DNA from: Myxococcales bacterium
GTDB lineage: Bacteria; Myxococcota; UBA727; VGSZ01
DNA: 42,811 nucleotides
Direction of reading: 5' to 3'
Assembly: GCA_023248635.1 (NCBI GenBank)
Contig: JAHFED010000052.1
Location: forward strand, 1-42,811
The notes under the pieces are model-generated. The model searched no databases. It saw nothing but the letters and a program-made list of their open reading frames with translations, and was not told where the DNA came from. The position numbers and the translations under genes were made by a program. This document shows positions 1,951 through 36,534 of the stretch, one piece after another; the stretch's first letter is position 1; each line of letters starts with the position of its first letter.

Positions 1951-2634
1951 GTGGGGGCCATCGCCTTCTTCGACGTCGACAAAACACTGCTCTCGGTGAA
2001 CAGCGCCTCGTTGTGGGTGCGCCGCGAGCTCGCCGCGGGCAACCTCTCGCGCCTCCAGGCCCTGCGGGCTGGCTTTTGGGTCACCCTCTACCACCTGGGC
2101 TTCGCGCGCATGGACGACGTGCTCAACGAGGCCGTCGCCACCTTGAAAGGGCGCGTCGAGCGCGAGGTCATCGAGCACACGCTGGCCTTCTATCGGGCCG
2201 ACGTGAAGCACACCATCCAACCCGCGGCCCGCGCGGCCATTCAGCGGCACAAGGAACGCGGCGACCTGGTGTTCTTGCTGACGTCGTCGTCGAACTACTT
2301 GTCGGCGCCCTTGGCCGACGAGCTGCAGATCGATGGATTCCTGGCCAACCGCTTCGTCGTCGACGGCGGCCGCTTCACCGGTCTCGCCGTGCAGCCCTTG
2401 TGCTTTGGCGCCGGCAAGGTGCAGCACGCCCAGGTCGTGGCTGAGAAGCTCAAGATCAAGCTCAAGGAGTGTTCGTTTTACACCGACAGCGCCAGTGACC
2501 TGCCCATGCTCGAAGCCGTCGGCGTCCCCGTCGCCGTCGATCCCGACCCGCGGCTGCGGCGCATCGCTCGCCGTCGAGGATGGGCCATCGAGGCCTGGCG
2601 TCAGCCGGTGAAAGCGTTGCCCTCGGAACGCTGA
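1951..2634 (+). CDS. HAD-superfamily IB hydrolase (SerB/CicA-like phosphatase)
   Basis: A 227-residue HAD subfamily IB protein. Motif I is FDVDKT (D8 nucleophile, D10 acid/base), motif II lies in LLTSSS near residue 112, and motif IV is TDSASDLPML near residue 179. The helical cap between motifs I and II fits subfamily IB, which includes phosphoserine phosphatase and CicA-like enzymes. DVDKT in place of DVDGT is common in this branch. The GTG start at 1951 follows the upstream stop by three bases, so the two genes are probably co-transcribed. The TGA stop (2632-2634) is at the same time the first three bases of a composite hairpin repeat, so the C-terminus sits exactly at the repeat junction. 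The substrate cannot be read from sequence. Confidence 0.88.
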   Translation: MGAIAFFDVDKTLLSVNSASLWVRRELAAGNLSRLQALRAGFWVTLYHLGFARMDDVLNEAVATLKGRVEREVIEHTLAFYRADVKHTIQPAARAAIQRHKERGDLVFLLTSSSNYLSAPLADELQIDGFLANRFVVDGGRFTGLAVQPLCFGAGKVQHAQVVAEKLKIKLKECSFYTDSASDLPMLEAVGVPVAVDPDPRLRRIARRRGWAIEAWRQPVKALPSER

Positions 2635-3062
2635 TCCCCGATCTCGCTGAACTTCGACCGCGGAGCGGTCTCGTTCAGCTCCGTCGTGGATGCCCTTCTG
2701 GGAGGTCTGATCCCCGATCTCGCTGAACTTCGACCGCGGAGCGGTCTCGTTCAGCTCCGTCGGGGATGCTCTTCTGGGAGGTCTGGTGCAGACCTCCCCC
2801 CGCGCCGGCGGAGCCGGACGCGGGGCCCCCCAACCAACTCCGCGTCCCGCGGGCGCGCTCCACGCGCATCATCCAGCGTCTTTCCCATCTCAGAACGTGG
2901 TCGAACATCAATCGGACGCGGGATGATGCAGACCTCCCCCCGCGCCGGCAGAGCCGGACGCGGGGCCCCCCACCAACTCCGCGTTCCGCGGGCGCGCTTC
3001 ACGCCCCATCCCGCGTCTTTCCAATTCAGAACGCGGTCGAACATCAAGCGGACGCGGGATGA
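2632..3062 (+). repeat. Composite multi-hairpin repeat, copy A, with duplicated modules
   Basis: The largest of six copies. Module I (2710-2767, 58 nt) is a long hairpin: ATCCCCGA/TCGGGGAT outside, GCTGAAC/GTTCAGC in the middle, GACCGC/GCGGTC at the tip around GGA. Module II (2776-2798) is GGGAGGTCTG-GTG-CAGACCTCCC. Module III (2798-2825) is CCCCGCG-CCGGC-GGA-GCCGG-A-CGCGGGG. Module IV (2867-2928) is closed by CATCATCC-GCGTC against GACGCGGGATGATG. Here module I occurs twice in tandem (2634-2691 and 2710-2767), and modules III-IV are repeated at about 2928-3062 after a GATGATGCAG junction. The element starts at the TGA stop of the HAD gene and lies between convergent genes. No coding role is apparent. 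Confidence 0.93.
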
Positions 3063-6955: not shown

Positions 6956-8302
6956 ATGAGATCGCCCCTGACGTCACTCTCACCCGCTCTCTTTGCCAGC
7001 TGCTTGCTCTGCTCCGGCGGCGTGTCGGTGTGCGGCATTCCGGTCGTCGAAGTGACCGAGGACGAGGAGCGCGCTGGCGACGACGGCGACAACGAAGACG
7101 ACGGCGACGACGGGAGCGGCGGTGAAGGAAGCGGGGACGAGGGAGAAGGTGAAGATGGGGGCGAAGAAGGCGACAACGGCGGCGAGGGAGAGGGGGGCGG
7201 CGAAGGCGAAGACGGCGGCGAAGGAGAAGGCGACGGAGGCGGTGAAGGGGGAGGAGAAGGCGAGGGCTGCAGGGACGGCGTCGAGGTGATCGACGGCGCA
7301 GCAACCGGCACCTTCAACTCCGTCGCTGTCGACGACGAGGGGCTGCTGCACGTGGCCTACTCGCAGGTGTCCGGCGGCGTGATCTACGCGCGCCAGCACG
7401 CCGGCGGGGCCTGGACCTTCGAGGTGGTGCAGGCCCTGCCCGTTGGCAGCCATCCCGCCATCGCCGTCGGCGCCGGCCCAGACCCCGAGGTGCACGTGGT
7501 GTATCCGGGCCCCAGCGGCAGCATCGACCATGCGGTGCGCGACCCCGAAACGCAGGAATGGTCGGTGCCCGACAGCGCGGTGGCAGGGGCCACGAGCGCG
7601 CGAGTGCGGAACCTGGAGATCGACGACGACGGCGGCCTGCACCTGCTCTACGAGGCGTCGCTGCCCTTCGTTGGCGTCGTCTCCCTGTATGTGCACAAAC
7701 CAGCCGGCGCGCAGTGGGGCAACGTCGAACAGGTGGCCGTCCTGGCGCAGCCCGGCGTCTTTTATTTCGGCGAAGAGTCGATGGCCCTCGACGACGACGG
7801 CGTCCCCCATGTCGCTTATCAGGACGACCTCGACGGCAACCGCGACGATCTGGGCTACGCCGTCCGCGCTGCCAGCGGCTGGGCGACTGAAATCGTGACC
7901 GACGTCGGCTTCGTCGGCGGCCACAACGCCATCGCGGTGGACGACGAGGGCACGGTGCACATCGCCTACACCGACCTTGCGGCCTTCGGCCTGCAGCACG
8001 CCCACCGCGCTGCCACTGCGGATGCCTGGACCCTCCAGACGCTGGACACCACCGACAACCCCGACGGGGTGGCGCTGGCGACGGGCGCTGATGGGGTGGT
8101 GCGCGCGGCCTACCGCACGCTGGATTTCTGCCGGCTGCGCGCGGCGGCGTTCAACGGCACGACCTGGGACGCCGAGCTGGTCGACGACGACCACTGCGCC
8201 CTGGACGAGCTCTCGCTCGCCGTCGACGGCGACAGCGTGGCCCACGTGGTCTTTCACGGCTCAGACGGCGACGACCTGCTTCAGGCGACGGTCTGCCCCT
8301 GA
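6956..8302 (+). CDS. Secreted lipoprotein-like protein: Gly/Glu/Asp-rich linker plus seven-repeat beta-propeller
   Basis: 448 residues. A short hydrophobic N-terminus ending in FASC looks like a lipobox, so the protein is probably anchored in the envelope. Residues about 32-105 are almost only Gly, Glu and Asp. The remainder contains seven spaced copies of a motif of the type (A/L)(I/V/L)AVDDxGxxHVAY: NSVAVDDEGLLHVAYS, AIAVGAGPDPEVHVVY, RNLEIDDDGGLHLLYE, SMALDDDGVPHVAYQ, AIAVDDEGTVHIAYT, VALATGADGVVRAAY and LSLAVDGDSVAHVVF. Seven such units suggest a seven-bladed propeller with calcium-binding-like Asp loops. The ligand is unknown. Its TGA stop is the first codon of composite repeat copy B. 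The start is the first ATG in frame; its ribosome site is weak. Confidence 0.82.
   Translation: MRSPLTSLSPALFASCLLCSGGVSVCGIPVVEVTEDEERAGDDGDNEDDGDDGSGGEGSGDEGEGEDGGEEGDNGGEGEGGGEGEDGGEGEGDGGGEGGGEGEGCRDGVEVIDGAATGTFNSVAVDDEGLLHVAYSQVSGGVIYARQHAGGAWTFEVVQALPVGSHPAIAVGAGPDPEVHVVYPGPSGSIDHAVRDPETQEWSVPDSAVAGATSARVRNLEIDDDGGLHLLYEASLPFVGVVSLYVHKPAGAQWGNVEQVAVLAQPGVFYFGEESMALDDDGVPHVAYQDDLDGNRDDLGYAVRAASGWATEIVTDVGFVGGHNAIAVDDEGTVHIAYTDLAAFGLQHAHRAATADAWTLQTLDTTDNPDGVALATGADGVVRAAYRTLDFCRLRAAAFNGTTWDAELVDDDHCALDELSLAVDGDSVAHVVFHGSDGDDLLQATVCP
7045..7265 (+). repeat. Low-complexity GGCGAAGGAGA-type tract coding a Gly/Glu/Asp linker
   Basis: About 220 bases of purine-rich, imperfect short repeats (GGCGAAGG, GAGGGCGG, GACGGCGG variants) that encode the acidic Gly/Glu/Asp linker of the propeller lipoprotein. 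No single period dominates. It is likely to vary in length between strains by slippage. Confidence 0.75.
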
Positions 8303-8480
8303 TCCCCGATCTCGCTGAACTTCGACCGCGGAGCGGTCTCGTTCAGCTCCGTCGGGGATGCTCTTCTGGGAGGTCTGATGCAGACCTCCCCCCGCGCCCG
8401 CGGGGCCCCCCACCAACTCCGCGTTCCGCGGGCGCGCTTCACGCGCATCATCCCGCGTCTTTCCCGGGATGCGGGATGAG
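8300..8480 (+). repeat. Composite multi-hairpin repeat, copy B (internally deleted)
   Basis: Begins with the TGA stop of the propeller gene. Modules I (8302-8359) and II are intact. Module III has lost its inner stem but keeps CCCCGCG against CGCGGGG, and module IV has lost most of its loop yet still closes with CATCCCGC against GCGGGATG. Deletions that spare the stems suggest that pairing matters. The element ends just before the arginase-family gene. Confidence 0.9.
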
Positions 8481-11140: not shown

Positions 11141-11187
11141 GCCGCGGCGAGACCGGCGTCACCCCCGGGGGACGCCGTCAAACATAG

Positions 11188-11247
11188 TGATCCCCGATCT
11201 CGCTGAACTTCGACCGCGGAGCGGTCTCGTTCATCGCCGTCGGGGAT
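11188..11247 (+). repeat. Composite repeat, copy C (module I only)
   Basis: Only the first hairpin is present: TGA, then ATCCCCGA (11190-11197) to TCGGGGAT (11240-11247), with the GACCGC/GCGGTC tip and a TGAAC/GTTCA middle stem. The right arm reads GTTCATCGCC as in copy E. It lies between the convergent M50 and lipoprotein genes, seven bases from the stop of the latter. A bidirectional terminator role is possible here. Confidence 0.88.
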
Positions 11248-11253
11248 CATCGA

Positions 11254-12177
11254 TCAGCTCGGCGACATGGCGATCAGGCGCGCCGCCGCCGCCGCCAACG
11301 CGTCCGGCATCGCCGCCAACGAAGGCGCCTGGGCCACCTCCCGCGCGATGGGCACGGCGCGCTCCACGTCGAACAGCGTCACATTGATCAGGAAAATGTT
11401 CCCGAGCTTTGATGCTCGAGAATAAGCCACATATCTGGCACCGAAAGCGCTGCCGATTTCCGCAAGACACTGCTCCGTATCACAGTCCATCTTTTGACGC
11501 TCAGCGCTGAGATCCATCAGCCGTTTCAAGTCGCCACTACTAAGCACCAGAAATCGCTTTGACGCACTGAGATAGGTCACCAAGAGCTGCGTCATGGTCT
11601 CATGGGTCGTGAGGTCGAAGGCGGGGCCCCGCATGGCCATCACCAGCATGCGGGGCTTCTCGGTGGTGGGGCCGGTGGCCGGCAGCACTGGCGCGGCGTC
11701 GGGAGGTGCGGGCGGCGACGGCGACGACGACGCGATGGATTCGGCGCTGAAGTCGACCGACCCCTCGAGGACCAGTCGGCTCAGGTTTGCCTTGGCCTCG
11801 CTTTCACCAACCGCGTCCACCGCCAAGCCAGCCCATGCTGGACCGATGCGCACATAGCCCACCGCCCCGCCGTCGATTTGAATGGTCGTGGATGCTTGTT
11901 GGCCTCCGAGGCCCGACTCGATCATCACGTCGTGAGACCCTGGCTGCAGCGTCACCGACCAGGCACCGTTCAGCTTGACGACGCCAACCTGACGCCGATC
12001 GACGATGAGAGTGCTGGACATGGCCGCGCCGACGAAGTTGTAGGGCCGATAGGCGACCAGCACTGCCTGGTTCGCCGACGGAGCGTTTTCGACGTCAGCG
12101 CGCGTCGAGCCTGAAGCCAGAGCGCAGCCCACCAGCGCCAGCACAATCAGAGCCATGCAGAGTCGCAACGCAGCCAT
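11254..12177 (-). CDS. Two-domain lipoprotein (DUF2846-like plus FlgO/CsgG-like domain)
   Basis: 307 residues with an N-terminal signal ending in the lipobox LVGC, so probably outer-membrane anchored. The first half (RPYNFVGAAMSS, then LIVDRRQVGVVKLNGAWSV and LQPGSHDVMI) resembles DUF2846-like beta domains that display a short loop and a PGxH motif. A Ser/Pro/Ala-rich hinge follows. The second half (MLVMAMRGPAF, QLLVTYLSASKRFLVLSSGDL, CDTEQCLAEIGSAFGARYVAY, LGNIFLINVTLFD) looks like the CsgG/FlgO-type nucleotide-binding-like domain common in deltaproteobacterial lipoproteins, with a CxxEQC pair. I chose the ATG at 12177 because GGGGGAG precedes it; a TTG at 12219 would overlap the upstream stop. 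Both domain calls are by eye. Confidence 0.7.
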   Translation of the reverse strand: MAALRLCMALIVLALVGCALASGSTRADVENAPSANQAVLVAYRPYNFVGAAMSSTLIVDRRQVGVVKLNGAWSVTLQPGSHDVMIESGLGGQQASTTIQIDGGAVGYVRIGPAWAGLAVDAVGESEAKANLSRLVLEGSVDFSAESIASSSPSPPAPPDAAPVLPATGPTTEKPRMLVMAMRGPAFDLTTHETMTQLLVTYLSASKRFLVLSSGDLKRLMDLSAERQKMDCDTEQCLAEIGSAFGARYVAYSRASKLGNIFLINVTLFDVERAVPIAREVAQAPSLAAMPDALAAAAARLIAMSPS

Positions 12178-17941: not shown

Positions 17942-18004
17942 GCCGGCAGCGTGCCACACGCGAAGCGGGTGTGCTTCGCCAAGAGCATCTCAGCCTGGAG
18001 GGTC

Positions 18005-18270
18005 TGATGCCCGATCTCGCTGAACTTCGACCGCGGAGCGGTCTCGTTCAGCTCCGTCGGGGATGCTCTTCTGGGAGGTCTGATGCAGACCTCCCCCCAC
18101 GCCGGCGGAGCCGGACGCGGGCCCCCCCACCAACTCCGCGTTCCGCGGGCGCGCTTCACGCGCATCATCCCGCGTCCTTCCCAGCTCGGAACGCGGTCGA
18201 ACATCAAGCGGACCCGGGATGATGCAGCGGATGCTGCCCTCCCCACGCCGGCGGAGCCAGACGTTGGGGC
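18005..18270 (+). repeat. Composite multi-hairpin repeat, copy D, with a degenerate extra module
   Basis: Full modules I-IV at 18005-18224 (module I 18007-18064, outer stem ATGCCCGA/TCGGGGAT with one mismatch). They are followed after a GATGATGCAG junction by a decayed second module III near 18239-18270 (CCCCACG against CGTTGGGG). A decayed left flank (GAGCATCTCAGCCTGGAGGGTCTGATG) resembles the module I/II border and may be the remnant of another unit. Unlike the other copies it lies between two minus-strand genes, 64 bases upstream of the MYXO-CTERM-like gene start. The 400-base gap 17960-18359 holds little else. Confidence 0.88.
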
Positions 18271-18359: not shown

Positions 18360-20477
18360 TCAGATCTTGAGCGTCGCCAGGGTCAGGGCGTCGATGACCT
18401 TCCTCTCCAAGAGCAGGTTGAGCAGCGTTTGGTGCATGGCCTTGTGCTCGCTCAACAAGCGCCGCGCCCGCGCCCGTTCTTCGTCGAGGATCTGATCGAT
18501 GGCGACGTCGATGCGGGCCCGCCTTGCCTCGGACAACTGTTCAGAGACCCGGTCGCCATCGTCGAGAATGACGCGCGGCCCCAGCGTGCCGATCATGCCG
18601 TGGCCTTCGACCATCGCGCGGGCGATGGACGTGCAGCTCTGCAGATCACCATAGGCCCCGATGGAGACGTCGTCGCAGAAGAGGCGCTCGGCCTCCATGC
18701 CGCCGAGGCCCACGCAAATCTCGGCGCGCAGCTCCGTCGCCGTCGTCGCATAGGGTCGGGCCCGCGCGGCGCGCAGCACGTAGCCCAACGCACCCTCGAT
18801 GTCCTGAGCGATGGCGATCTTCTCCGGCGGGCGCGCTCCCGGCACGACCATCGCCAGCAACGCGTGCCCCGCTTCGTGGATGGCGATGACCCGCTCTTCG
18901 CCCTCGGAGAGGGTGACCTGCCGCCGGGTCTTGCGCTGCAGCGCTTTGTCGACGTCGTCGGCGCTGAAGGTCCTTTGCCCCGTGCGCAGCTGCTGACGAC
19001 GCAAGGCGCGACCGACGGCGAACAAGTGATCGCCCGTGAATGGCAGACCTTTTTCCTTGTCGGCCCAACCTTCGGTGCGACGCACGAGGTGGTCGATCAG
19101 TTTCTCGTCGAGACCGAGGCCCAGCTTCTGGTTGTAGATGTCGATGATTGCTTTGCGATCCTCCGACGTCGGCGCCGGAATTTCGATGAGGAATTCGAAG
19201 CGCCCGGGACGCAACAGCGCCGCGTCGAGGGACTCGAGGAAATTGGTGGTCCCAATGATGAAGATCATTTCATTCTTGCGAAATCCATCCATCTCGGTCA
19301 ACAATTGGTTCACCATCGAATGCTCGACCCCTGACCCTCCATAGGTGCCTCGAGCATGGGCAAAGGCGTCGATTTCGTCGAACACGAGCACCGTCGGTGC
19401 ATTCTGTCGGGCACGTCGAAATACCCGACGAAGATTTTCCTCAGATTCACCAACCCATTTACTTTTTAGTTCCGGACCAGAGACAACAATAACAGTCGCA
19501 TTCAGCGCCGTTGCTACTGCTTTTGCAAAATATGTCTTTCCGGTGCCAGGAGGCCCGAAGAAGATCATGCCGCGCGGCAGCAGCTCTTCGACGGTCTTGA
19601 TGTCGGCCTCGGACTTCTGCTGGTCCTTGGTCGCCACCAGATCGATGAGTTCCTCGCGCAAGCGCTCCTTGACGATCTGATAGCCCCCGATGTCCTTGTC
19701 GATGTCGACATTGGGCAGATCGACGTCGTCAGTGGCGGTCTGCTTGCGCAGCTCGACGTAGACGGCCTTGGCGTTGGGTCGCGCCGGTGGAGCTTCGACG
19801 CGTTGGGCGAGGTCGGCAAAGAGGCGGCGGCAACGGACCGGATTCAAGCCGGAAACGAATTTGTACAAGCCAAAGGGATCGAATTCCGTCGACGACAGCG
19901 CCTTGGCCTCGCGCTGGGTGATGAGGCGGGGCAGGGCCTCGCGGGGAATGCCGGCGATCTCGCGCCGAGCAGCAAAGACCCCGAGCAGAACCTTGGGAAT
20001 CTCAAAGCTGGGATCGCGAAAGGCGAGCAGGCACACCTCGGGGTTTTCGTAGAGCAGGGGAATCGCTTCGCGGGCCTCCATGGTGAGACCGGTGTGGGTC
20101 GTCGTCAGCACGTCGAGGTGGGGCAGCACGATCACAGTCTTGTCGACGGAGCCGCGCACGAAGCCGCCCAGCTGATCGATCATGCGCCCGAGCTGTCCCG
20201 AGGGGCGATCCTCGGGACCACCGCGGCCGTCGACGACGACCAAACGTGGCGGCTTCCCCGTCGACGTCACCGCTTTGCGCAGACGGTTGCGCACGGCGAG
20301 CACCAGATAGAGCACCAGCTCTTTGTCACACTCCACCAGCACGCTCTGGCCCGCGAGCAGCTTCTCCTCGAGGAAGGCGAGATCTTTGGCACAGGCGGCG
20401 TCGACGGCGTCTTCGACGCGCAGCTCGATCGACAAGCTGCTGATGGCGAGAGCGGGATTTCCGGCGGGCAAGCTCAT
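18360..20477 (-). CDS. Soluble FtsH-like AAA ATPase-M41 zinc protease with divergent N-terminal domain
   Basis: 705 residues. Residues about 255-520 form a AAA module: GPPGTGKT (308-315), Walker B LVFDEID (364-370), and the second region of homology from GTTNF to LRPGRFE (409-427). The M41 peptidase follows with HEAGH (534-538) and the third zinc ligand D611 in GAYGDLQSC, where most FtsH proteins read GAxNDL. The two N-terminal membrane helices and periplasmic domain of FtsH are absent. Residues 1-230 instead resemble a decayed AAA domain: VIVLPHLDVL looks like a Walker B strand, and FEIPKVLLGVFAARREI recalls the sensor/arginine-finger area, without a P-loop. So this is probably a cytosolic AAA protease, in the same transcript as the kinase gene 37 bases upstream. 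ATG 20477 has an AGAGGT ribosome site. The Walker A area is locally AT-rich. Confidence 0.88.
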   Translation of the reverse strand: MSLPAGNPALAISSLSIELRVEDAVDAACAKDLAFLEEKLLAGQSVLVECDKELVLYLVLAVRNRLRKAVTSTGKPPRLVVVDGRGGPEDRPSGQLGRMIDQLGGFVRGSVDKTVIVLPHLDVLTTTHTGLTMEAREAIPLLYENPEVCLLAFRDPSFEIPKVLLGVFAARREIAGIPREALPRLITQREAKALSSTEFDPFGLYKFVSGLNPVRCRRLFADLAQRVEAPPARPNAKAVYVELRKQTATDDVDLPNVDIDKDIGGYQIVKERLREELIDLVATKDQQKSEADIKTVEELLPRGMIFFGPPGTGKTYFAKAVATALNATVIVVSGPELKSKWVGESEENLRRVFRRARQNAPTVLVFDEIDAFAHARGTYGGSGVEHSMVNQLLTEMDGFRKNEMIFIIGTTNFLESLDAALLRPGRFEFLIEIPAPTSEDRKAIIDIYNQKLGLGLDEKLIDHLVRRTEGWADKEKGLPFTGDHLFAVGRALRRQQLRTGQRTFSADDVDKALQRKTRRQVTLSEGEERVIAIHEAGHALLAMVVPGARPPEKIAIAQDIEGALGYVLRAARARPYATTATELRAEICVGLGGMEAERLFCDDVSIGAYGDLQSCTSIARAMVEGHGMIGTLGPRVILDDGDRVSEQLSEARRARIDVAIDQILDEERARARRLLSEHKAMHQTLLNLLLERKVIDALTLATLKI

Positions 20478-20514: not shown

Positions 20515-22869
20515 TCAGGGGGCGCCAAGCTCCACCTGCACGCTGGTGGTCTCACCCCGTTTGACGTCGACGAACACGGTCTTGGCCAGCACACCCTGCT
20601 CGAGATTCAAGCGGTGTTTGCCCGGAGGCAGCGACAGCGCCGGCAGCGGCGTGGTGCCGACGCTCAAGCCGTCGAGGCTGAGCTTGACGCCGGATCGCAC
20701 GCGCACCACCAAGAGGCCTTCGCCGCTGCCAGCGACCACCGACGCCGCCGGGGCTCGGGGATGGCTGCGCTTCCTCCTCTTGACGGGAGACGTGTCCTGG
20801 TCATCCTCGTCGATCGCAAACGTGCCCGCATCGCTGCCGCCGGCGCTGACCCCAGCATCGGTGACGGCGGGGACGGCGCCCACGGCCAGGGCCGACGCGA
20901 TTCCAGCATCAACATCGGCGATGCCGGCATCGGCGACGGCGGCGGCTCCGATCACCTCCGGGGCGGGGGGCGCAACGGGGACGACGACGGGGGCGGGCGA
21001 GCGCAGGGTCGGACGCAGCAAGGGGTTTGGCAATGCGCCGATGGCCATGGCGAGGAGTACGACGACGACGAGCGCTGCCCCGGCGCCGGCGATGACGGCG
21101 GCGATTCCGCCGGCGTATTTCGGTGAGCGGCGCCCGCTGGCCGTGCGGCCGGACATCGACGACCGCAACTCGGGAGACGCGGTGACAGCAACGGGCGGCG
21201 CCGGCGGCCCGGCGGCCTCTTGAGCCTCGTTGACGTCCAGCTCGACGGTGTCGCGCATCTCGATGGGGATCTGCTCCTTCCACGAGGCACGGCGCTGCTG
21301 GGTCGGGGCGTCGACGTCGACGACCGCGCTGGCGCCGGCTCCCTGGTCGACGGGGGCGGGGGCTTCGATCGAGCTCAGGCCCAGCGATCCGGGCGCCCGC
21401 GGATCGGTGGCCATTTCACCGCCCCCAGGCAACCGCGATGAACCTGTAGACAATTCACCGACACGCGAAGCGCCGTCGGTGAATTCATCGCCGCCAGGCG
21501 ATGAACCTGCAGACAATTCACCGACACGCGACGCGCGGTCGGTGAACTCCGACGGGGGCGGCTCGGTGGAGGGCAACAGGGTTTCGGCGTCGGCGTCGTT
21601 GTCGTCGCCCACCACCGTCTTGGCCATACCCGGGAGCGCGCCGACGTCGACGGGGCCGGGCCGGCCCTCGAGGGTCATCTGGATGGTGCGCGCTTGCGAC
21701 ACATCGGCGCCTTCGGGAAGGGGCGATGCGGCCCGCGAGGCGGTGATGAGCGAAGGCCCGGGGCCACTCCAGAAAAGCACGGGAACGGCGGCGACGTCGG
21801 GAACGAGCTCATAGGGCGCCAGAGGCAAAGCGAGGCCCGCGGCGACGACGTCGGAGGCGACCGGGGCAGCCCCCGGCAACCCCATCATCAACATCGAAAG
21901 GCTGTCGTGCACGGCCGCCGCCGACGAAATGCGCCGTGTGGGGTCCTTCTCCAGGCAGGCGAGCACCACCTCTTCGAGCCGTGCTGGCACCTGGGGATTG
22001 AGTTGGCGCAGGGGGCGGGGGGCTTCGTCGAGGATGGCCTTCATGGTGAAGACGTCGCTGGGCCCGTCGAAAGGCCGACGCCCCGTGAGCAGCCAATACA
22101 AAACGACCCCGACGGAAAACAAATCCGCTCGTGCATCGATGCGCTCGCCGCGGAGGTGCTCGGGCGCCATGTAGGGCACCTTCCCCTTGAGCTCGCCGGC
22201 CACGGTGAGCCCCGCCCAGTCCTCTCTTTTGGCGATGCCGAAATCGAGCAGCTTGGTGACGCCGGCGGTGGTGAGGAAGAGATTGTCCGGCGAGATGTCC
22301 CGGTGCACGAGGTGAGCGGGTTGGCCACGCTCGTCACGCAGCTGGTGGGCGTGGGAGAGACCGAGACAGCCGTCGGCCACCGCACGCACGACGAGCTCGA
22401 GGGGCAAAGCACGCTTGGCCTGCCAAACGCGAAGCGCAAGATCACGCAGCGTCAAGCCCTCCAGGTACTCCATGACGATGTAGTGCTCCGACACGCCCTC
22501 GGCGGTGGAGCCCTCTTCGATGCCGAGCTCGATGACCTGCACGATGTTGCGATGCTCGAGAGAGGCCAGCAGCCGCGCCTCGCGCACGAACATTTCCACC
22601 TGGGTGTTGACACCGTCCTGGCTGCGCCGCGCGGCCTTCACCAGGCTGGGGCGGATGCGCTTGACGACGACCTTCTTGCTAAAACGTGCGGGGCCCTCGA
22701 CGGTGGCGAGCCAAATCTCAGCCATGCCGCCGTGGGCGATGATGCGGTCGAGGGTGTAGCGGCCCAGCCTGCGCGGCGCCGACGAGAGCTTGCGCTTCGC
22801 TGCTTCGTCATAGGCGACGACCTCGGTGCGGTCACCCGGTCGGCGTTTGTCGTCGTCGCGACTGCTCAC
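20515..22869 (-). CDS. Serine/threonine protein kinase with transmembrane segment and C-terminal PEGA domain
   Basis: 784 residues. A PknB-type kinase domain spans about residues 37-330: glycine loop AHGGMAEIW, K70 in VVVKRI, HRDISPDN (189-196), DFG (209-211), and APEHL in the activation segment. These are all catalytic elements, so it should be active. A long low-complexity linker follows, then a transmembrane helix (IAAVIAGAGAALVVVVLL) near residue 590, a Pro/Ala-rich spacer, and a PEGA-type beta domain at the end (VKLSLDGLSVGTTPLPALSLPPGKH). PEGA domains are outside or surface-associated, so this is a membrane receptor kinase. The linker contains two tandem in-frame palindromic units at 21437-21552. 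GTG start; no strong ribosome site. The kinase gene precedes the FtsH-like gene. Confidence 0.92.
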   Translation of the reverse strand: MSSRDDDKRRPGDRTEVVAYDEAAKRKLSSAPRRLGRYTLDRIIAHGGMAEIWLATVEGPARFSKKVVVKRIRPSLVKAARRSQDGVNTQVEMFVREARLLASLEHRNIVQVIELGIEEGSTAEGVSEHYIVMEYLEGLTLRDLALRVWQAKRALPLELVVRAVADGCLGLSHAHQLRDERGQPAHLVHRDISPDNLFLTTAGVTKLLDFGIAKREDWAGLTVAGELKGKVPYMAPEHLRGERIDARADLFSVGVVLYWLLTGRRPFDGPSDVFTMKAILDEAPRPLRQLNPQVPARLEEVVLACLEKDPTRRISSAAAVHDSLSMLMMGLPGAAPVASDVVAAGLALPLAPYELVPDVAAVPVLFWSGPGPSLITASRAASPLPEGADVSQARTIQMTLEGRPGPVDVGALPGMAKTVVGDDNDADAETLLPSTEPPPSEFTDRASRVGELSAGSSPGGDEFTDGASRVGELSTGSSRLPGGGEMATDPRAPGSLGLSSIEAPAPVDQGAGASAVVDVDAPTQQRRASWKEQIPIEMRDTVELDVNEAQEAAGPPAPPVAVTASPELRSSMSGRTASGRRSPKYAGGIAAVIAGAGAALVVVVLLAMAIGALPNPLLRPTLRSPAPVVVPVAPPAPEVIGAAAVADAGIADVDAGIASALAVGAVPAVTDAGVSAGGSDAGTFAIDEDDQDTSPVKRRKRSHPRAPAASVVAGSGEGLLVVRVRSGVKLSLDGLSVGTTPLPALSLPPGKHRLNLEQGVLAKTVFVDVKRGETTSVQVELGAP
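21437..21552. repeat. Two tandem 63-bp units, each with a perfect palindrome, inside the kinase linker
   Basis: Units begin at 21437 and 21500 (GATGAACCTG(T/C)AG). Unit 1 contains AATTCACCGAC and GTCGGTGAATT, an 11-bp inverted repeat around 12 bases; unit 2 keeps nine pairs (TTCACCGAC/GTCGGTGAA). They are in frame and encode repeated FTDxASRVGELS on the minus strand. The AATT ends are unusual in this GC-rich gene. Confidence 0.85.
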
Positions 22870-26035: not shown

Positions 26036-27649
<1,614 letters not shown>

Positions 27650-27652
<3 letters not shown>

Positions 27653-27867
27653 TCCCCGATCTCGCTGAACTTCGACCGCGGAGCGGTCTCGTTCATCGCC
27701 GTCAGGGATGCTCTTCTGGGAGGTCTGGTGCAGACCTCCCCCCGCGCCGGCGGAGCCGGACGCGGGGCCCCCCACCAACTCCGCGTTCCGCGAGCGCGCT
27801 TCACGCGCATCATCCCGCGTCTTTCCCATCTCGGAACGCGGTCGAACATCAAGCGGACGCGGGATGA
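27650..27867 (+). repeat. Composite multi-hairpin repeat, copy E (full length)
   Basis: 218 bases, all four modules. Module I (27652-27709) has one mismatch in the outer stem (ATCCCCGA/TCAGGGAT) and the GTTCATCGCC right arm. Module II (27718-27740) is perfect. The atpA stop TGA is its first codon. It sits where atpG would be expected and is followed by a REP-like hairpin. Confidence 0.93.
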
Positions 27868-35461: not shown

Positions 35462-36322
35462 ATGCACCTTCGAAAGAATGGGTTTGAGGCCCCAAGCTCG
35501 GCGACGCCGCCGCGTCTCGAAACCAACCCGCCACTGGTCAATGCCCCAGTTCTGCCGGGCCCTGCGTTGCCGGCCTCCGTCGTCGTCGAAAGGCCGACGG
35601 ACGTACTTGTTGCCATGCAGACCCCGATCAGTCCCGATCTTGACAGCCGCAGGCAGGCCCAAGTGGGGGCGCGTCCGCAGGACTCGGGAACGAGAAGTCT
35701 CCCGCCCAACGCTGCAGAGACGGCGTCGTGGAAACCGGGGCCCATCGCCGACGCCAAAGAGATCGTGGCCGCGTTGATCAGAGGGCACGGCACCGCGCTG
35801 AACGAGGCCCAGCTCGATCTCTACCTCCGCCAGTACCAAGCTGGTGGCCGCGTGAACGTCGAAGCCCGCAGCTCCATGAACATCGCTGGCGTCTTCAATG
35901 CCGCCACTGGCAAAGCGGCGTGGGAGCAGCGCTCCTCGATGAAGGTCGCCGGCGTGTTCAATCCCGTCAGCGGCAACGTCGAGTGGCAGCAGCGCTCGTC
36001 GATGAACATCGCTGGCGCCTTCAATCCCATCACCGGCAAGGTGGAGTGGGAGCAGCGCTCGACCCTGAATCTGGCTGGCGTCTTCAACCCCATCAGCGGC
36101 AAGGTCGAGTGGCAGCAGCGGTCGTCGTCGAACATCGCTGGCGCGTTCAACCCCAACACCAAAAGGGTCGAGTGGAAGGAGTTCTCGACGATGAAGGTGG
36201 CCGGCGCCTTCGATCCGACGTTGGGCTCCGTTCGCTGGGAGACGCGCTCGTCGATGAATCTCGCGATGGTCTACGTGCCCCCGGCGACCACGGCCGGGAT
36301 TGACGGCGCGGAAGGCTACTGA
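35462..36322 (+). CDS. Protein of seven 21-residue beta-repeats, unknown family
   Basis: 286 residues from ATG 35462 (GTG 35429 would add 11). The N-terminal 130 residues are Pro/Ala/Val-rich and have one helical segment (AKEIVAALIRGHGTALNEAQLDLYLRQYQAGG). Then come seven units of 21 residues (63 bp, starts at 35867, 35930, 35993, 36056, 36119, 36182, 36245), pattern (R/F)S(S/T)(M/L/S)(N/K)(I/V/L)AG(V/A)FNPxTGKVEW(E/Q)(Q/E). Each unit has two short strands joined by a turn (NPxTGK), suggesting a regular beta-meander, solenoid or amyloid-like fold. No signal peptide, membrane helix or catalytic motif was seen. Trp is conserved at position 19 in six units. Its TGA stop is the first codon of repeat copy F. 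I know no family with this repeat. Confidence 0.8.
   Translation: MHLRKNGFEAPSSATPPRLETNPPLVNAPVLPGPALPASVVVERPTDVLVAMQTPISPDLDSRRQAQVGARPQDSGTRSLPPNAAETASWKPGPIADAKEIVAALIRGHGTALNEAQLDLYLRQYQAGGRVNVEARSSMNIAGVFNAATGKAAWEQRSSMKVAGVFNPVSGNVEWQQRSSMNIAGAFNPITGKVEWEQRSTLNLAGVFNPISGKVEWQQRSSSNIAGAFNPNTKRVEWKEFSTMKVAGAFDPTLGSVRWETRSSMNLAMVYVPPATTAGIDGAEGY
35867..36307 (+). repeat. Seven tandem 63-bp coding repeats
   Basis: In-frame 63-bp repeats with high similarity at DNA level (for example GAGTGG(G/C)AGCAGCGCTC(G/C)TCGATGAA), so recent amplification by slippage or recombination is likely. The last unit is partial and divergent. The repeat number probably differs between strains. Confidence 0.9.
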
Positions 36323-36534
36323 TCCCCGATCTCGTTGAACTTCGACCGCGGAGCGGTCTCGTTCATCTCGGTCGGGGATGCCCTTCTGGGAGGTCTGGTG
36401 CAGACCCCCCCGCGCCGGCGGAGCCGGACGCGGGGCCCCCCACCAACTCCGCGTTCCGCGGGCGCGCTTCACGCGCATCATCCTGCGTCTTCCCATCTCG
36501 GAACGCGGTCGAACATCAAGCGGACGCGGGATGA
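36320..36534 (+). repeat. Composite multi-hairpin repeat, copy F (full length)
   Basis: 215 bases with modules I-IV. Module I (36322-36379) has TTGAAC/GTTCAT variants; module II has one mismatch (CAGACCCCCC arm). It starts with the TGA of the 21-residue-repeat gene, and its right end (36516-36534) encodes the last residues and the stop of the convergent hypothetical gene on the minus strand. Confidence 0.93.

Follow-up and report, generated by a model that had tools for sequence, protein, structure and literature searches.

The window, by which we mean the whole stretch of DNA analyzed here (42,811 nucleotides, contig JAHFED010000052.1 of a Myxococcales bacterium, assembly GCA_023248635.1), carries a gene for a two-part AAA–M41 protein that lies directly behind a gene for a receptor-type Ser/Thr kinase (Table 1). 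It also holds several intergenic copies of a G+C-rich interspersed repeat of about 110 to 250 bp, which occurs on further contigs as well; the copy nearest the 3' end of the protease gene begins about 140 bp beyond it. A separate observation is a set of five direct repeat copies, spaced at 63 bp, between positions 35873 and 36250.

Table 1. Coordinates of the protease, its domains and the flanking kinase in the window, with the contigs that hold the partner blocks
Feature	Location	Strand	Basis or remark
AAA–M41 protease gene (very likely the FtsH-ternary-system component)	18360..20477	-	ATG at 20477; 705 aa
Predicted degenerate AAA fold without P-loop, residues 1–261	19695..20477	-	AF2 + Foldseek; model confident to about residue 245
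Active AAA domain, residues 304–434	19176..19568	-	Pfam AAA, E 4e-41
Walker A GPPGTGKT, residues 308–315	19533..19556	-	
M41 zinc peptidase domain, residues 523–699	18381..18911	-	Pfam Peptidase_M41, E 6e-34
HEAGH zinc/catalytic motif, residues 534–538	18864..18878	-	H, E, H invariant in 94 relatives
Third zinc ligand D611 in GAYGDL	18645..18647	-	Asp invariant in 94 relatives
Transmembrane Ser/Thr kinase with PEGA domain	20515..22869	-	Pfam Pkinase + PEGA; hydropathy peak 2.81 at residue 592
Repeat copies in window	2631–3062, 8299–8465, 11187–11295, 17974–18222, 27619–27867, 36319–36534		Also L149, L165
Protease block	contig C89 (= window)		
X3analog + X7 block	contig C82		
MoxR + ivWA block	contig C73		
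Radical SAM + fvmX6 + fvmX5 block	contig C54		

An intact proteolytic core and the absence of a membrane segment

An earlier, sequence-only reading of this DNA had described a complete AAA–M41 core with no transmembrane region, and both parts of that description held up. Pfam recovers the two domains, and in the 94 full-length relatives (mostly from two phyla, and including some near-duplicates and the window's own copy) the Walker B DE, the two SRH arginines, the HEXXH motif and the third Asp ligand are invariant. The Walker A GPPG is nearly so, as a Gln replaces a proline in one of these relatives while the glycines are kept. The protein thus has the HEXXH motif and the third Asp ligand by which peptidase family M41 is recognized. 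The same reading had taken GAYGDL as a change at the third zinc ligand, which must be withdrawn: the ligand is the Asp, unchanged throughout the relatives, and the Asn that precedes it in GAxND is no zinc ligand and merely varies across the family.

FtsH is the textbook membrane-bound AAA protease. Two M41 genes were found in this genome, the window protease and a canonical FtsH on contig C120, and the latter has a clear membrane segment (19-residue hydropathy of 2.82), whereas the same measure finds none in the window protease, with a best value of 1.28 in the first 290 residues. An anchor lost through a misassigned start had been raised as a concern; hydrophobicity is absent from the 39 codons that precede the ATG in frame, and therefore no anchor is concealed there. 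In another genome of the genus (G002, contig C6, L025 7473–9433), the canonical FtsH gene is split between AAA and M41 into two ORFs in different frames, which may be real or an assembly error.

A predicted degenerate AAA domain and a motor that scores higher with CDC48 than with FtsH profiles

Residues 1–250 are predicted to form a degenerate AAA domain without a P-loop, as the sequence-only reading had proposed for the first 230 or so residues. The AF2 model of residues 1–261, built on a 73-sequence alignment, has a mean pLDDT of 85.5 and a pTM of 0.82, with strands at 46–49, 78–81, 114–118, 148–154 and 170–173, helices between them and a helical end resembling an AAA lid. In a Foldseek search against the PDB, the top 50 matches listed are all AAA+ proteins or AAA+ complexes, with E values from 6.5e-6 (the best, probability 1.00) to 1.2e-4 and TMq of 0.33–0.57; they include 26S Rpt subunits, p97 D1, Msp1, Vps4, TRIP13, Ycf2-FtsHi and ORC. 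The structure prediction thus points to an AAA-like fold rather than an unrelated one, and the modest TM-scores make it a divergent AAA. After the first strand there is no GxxxxGK[ST]; the region reads 46-VLVECDKEL, with no glycine loop. K52, invariant in the 73-row alignment, could be what is left of the Walker A lysine.

It is worth considering that sequence comparison by itself does not reach this fold. Pfam finds no domain in the first 240 residues, and profile comparisons of the N-domain (hhalign in local mode among them) with AAA profiles, those of FtsH and CDC48 included, and with PDB sequences revealed no link at the sequence level, so the assignment draws on structure prediction and on the published description of the family. 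A full-length single-sequence AF2 model (pLDDT 39.6) was too poor for use. A two-ring layout, with the degenerate domain (D1) above the active one (D2), is plausible for the window protease.

A single-protein scan of genome contigs returned nothing; a search with the N-domain alignment retrieved 80 loci from GTDB genomes. Of 195 Myxococcota genomes, 52 showed the domain, and these belong to 12 of 90 genera. With the canonical FtsH profile TIGR01241, the window protease scores 268.9 bits, below the curated equivalog cut-off of 600 bits, and its isolated active AAA domain scores 207.5 bits with the CDC48 profile versus 152.1 with the FtsH profile. Controls behaved as expected, the AAA domain of the genome's own FtsH scoring 525.1 with the FtsH profile and a myxobacterial CDC48 D2 scoring 362.4 with the CDC48 profile. 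Furthermore, an M41 phylogeny groups the family as its own clade (100/100), and the AAA tree does the same (100/100). The AAA tree is compatible with either kinship of the motor: a grouping of the family with CDC48 has support of 84/84, and the AU test gives p 0.55 for a grouping with FtsH. The protein may descend from an FtsH whose anchor was lost or from a CDC48-like motor to which M41 was added. Since the CDC48 profile outscores the FtsH profiles, the name "FtsH" is uncertain for the motor on sequence grounds. PADLOC returned generic AAA matches only, for example IetA and TRIP13.

In six loci (L028, L029, L030, L034, L061 and L093) from Myxococcota and Planctomycetota, the FtsH-ternary gene is interrupted at the motor pore loop by some 440–460 aa of inserted sequence, placed between KWVGE and SEENLR, itself starting with S and ending with HN. 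The inserts of L028 and L061 match Pfam Intein_splicing and LAGLIDADG_3 and have Ser at position 1, and the copy in L093 is cut by the contig end.

Probable membership in a known ternary system with dispersed partner genes

MoxR–vWA–FtsH systems were described as "FtsH ternary systems" by Kaur, Burroughs, Iyer and Aravind in 2020 (PMC7159879). As presented there, the FtsH protein is the third component and has two FtsH-type AAA domains, the first inactive, with P-loop and Walker B lost, and the second active; it is called an AAA+ ATPase chaperone, and the main text does not mention M41. The authors' hypothesis is that the systems act in conflict or in the stress response of socially living bacteria (PMC7159879). 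Our PMC searches found no other paper on FtsH ternary systems; a wider search on MoxR–vWA–FtsH conflict systems found FtsH named once in one further paper, and no experimental study of the protease family was found.

The window protease has the same arrangement of a first AAA domain without P-loop (the fold by prediction, the missing loop by sequence) and an active second one, and it is orthologous to proteins encoded beside MoxR, vWA and fvmX genes. One orthologue, in genome G057, shares 51% identity over residues 13–697 and sits between fvmX5, fvmX6 and radical SAM on one side and fvmX3-analog, fvmX7, MoxR and ivWA on the other. These neighbors are matched by the Pfam models made for the ternary system: bpMoxR, ivWA with its helical N-region, fvmX3-analog, fvmX5, fvmX6 and fvmX7. 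Across the loci fetched, the order rSAM–X6–X5–FtsH–X3analog–X7–MoxR–ivWA recurs in Myxococcota and Planctomycetota, its vWA gene being divergent; this survey used locally built profiles, and since many of the contigs are short, its counts are minimum values. The window protease is therefore a member of a known family (Kaur et al. 2020, PMC7159879) and not a one-off, and we hold with good confidence that its gene encodes a zinc protease that is soluble and driven by ATP and that acts as the "FtsH" part of a MoxR–vWA–FtsH ternary system.

What is new here is that the window genome has all the ternary components, split into four separate blocks, with the protease gene behind a PEGA kinase. MoxR, vWA and fvmX genes are all present (C73, C82 and C54), although not in one neighborhood with the protease. 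A single match was found for fvmX5 and likewise for fvmX6, whereas a weaker, additional fvmX7 match lies on contig C96, where other components are absent from the stretch examined. The large fvmX7 protein of this genome reaches the Pfam cut-off when the genome is searched in six frames, but not when scanned as a single protein at E 0.001. In the same genus, genome G002 keeps kinase–protease–X3analog–X7 together and genome G001 has protease–X3analog–X7 together, on a contig that is short. The X5 and MoxR–ivWA blocks are found on different contigs from these in both genomes, although the two assemblies consist of short contigs. We considered an assembly error at the repeat 3' of the protease as the cause of the split. 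That repeat was not found in the C82 stretch with X3analog–X7, and the blocks of the two congeneric genomes are also on separate contigs; the dispersal therefore looks real, the break between FtsH and X3analog itself being seen in the window genome only. With its components dispersed, this genus is a suitable place to ask which of them need linkage.

Kinase adjacency, alternative readings and comparison with known systems

The kinase gene does stand directly before the protease gene, as had been noted, its stop at 20515 leaving 37 bp before the ATG on the same strand. One can then read the kinase as the real partner, one that would phosphorylate either the protease itself or a substrate of it, with the ternary partners mattering less in this genus. 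The order is kept in G002, and the kinase's closest paralogue in the genome (64% identity, the next 52%) lies directly upstream of rSAM–X6–X5 on C54. It is suggestive that the two closest kinase paralogues each precede a block of this system, and regulated proteolysis is possible, given that the paralogue adjoins a further block of it. Alternatively, a single ancestral locus of kinase and operon could have been duplicated and then split. However, adjacency by itself says little, because the 6.5-Mb genome has about 100 kinases and kinase neighbors are common. The kinase–protease pair was seen only in the window genus (the window and G002), most related loci are without a related kinase, and neither G001 nor G002 has one at the X5 block in the stretch examined. 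Moreover, no partner gene has been lost, and the original system therefore probably still works. We therefore consider control by the kinase in place of the ternary partners rather unlikely. Likewise, the idea that in this genus a self-contained conflict operon was rewired into a dispersed network, with paralogous Ser/Thr kinases controlling separate blocks as a kinase-gated cytosolic AAA-protease pathway, is speculative and rather improbable.

A reading as a chaperone, in which the AAA pair remodels complexes and M41 goes unused, agrees with the term chosen by Kaur et al. and with the absence of M41 from their main text (PMC7159879). It is highly improbable, since an unused site would hardly keep HEXXH and the third Asp invariant in the 94 relatives, drawn mostly from two phyla. 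Because the M41 site is invariant across the family, the ternary component is probably a protease and not only a chaperone, and proteolysis is probably central to ternary systems. An ordinary membrane FtsH, with its anchor missed through a wrong start or a sequencing error, would explain the likeness of AAA plus M41 to FtsH, yet it is refuted by the finding that neither the ORF nor the sequence before it encodes a hydrophobic segment, by the conservation of the N-domain in two phyla, the separate canonical FtsH and the family's own clade in both trees. Overall, the degenerate AAA, active AAA, M41 domain and missing anchor of the sequence-only reading stand; the family turns out to be already described, the zinc site is unaltered, and the kinase adjacency was seen in one genus only, whereas the partners conserved more widely are MoxR, vWA, the fvmX proteins and a radical SAM enzyme.

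As the "FtsH" component of a ternary system, the window protease would be a cytosolic hexamer, whose dead D1 layer may give the small fvmX proteins a platform for docking and gating, and whose D2 would pull substrate across the W-V-G pore loop into the M41 chamber. The conserved operon suggests that the MoxR–vWA chaperone pair might remodel or release a target, or the system's radical-SAM-modified peptide or protein, which the protease would then unfold and cleave. If it combines a dead upper AAA and a CDC48-like motor with M41, this widespread soluble FtsH relative would represent, in bacteria, the equivalent of a two-tier unfoldase–protease.

Among known systems, the published FtsH ternary component is the closest match: it shares the inactive N-terminal AAA, the active AAA and the occurrence in Myxococcota and Planctomycetota (PMC7159879), and its bpMoxR, ivWA, fvmX3-analog, fvmX5, fvmX6, fvmX7 and radical SAM partners are found at orthologous loci. 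The window genome differs in having the operon in four blocks and the gene behind a Ser/Thr kinase. With FtsH and the m-AAA and i-AAA proteases, the window protein shares the AAA–M41 order, HEXXH, the third Asp ligand and the SRH arginines, but it is without membrane segments, has the extra, predicted degenerate AAA, forms its own clade and has W-V-G (KWVGESE) in the pore loop where those proteases have F-V-G (FVGVGAS). The tandem D1–D2 unfoldase CDC48/p97 resembles it in the AAA pair and in the best profile match of the active AAA; unlike CDC48/p97, the window protease has a first AAA without a P-loop and an M41 protease of its own.
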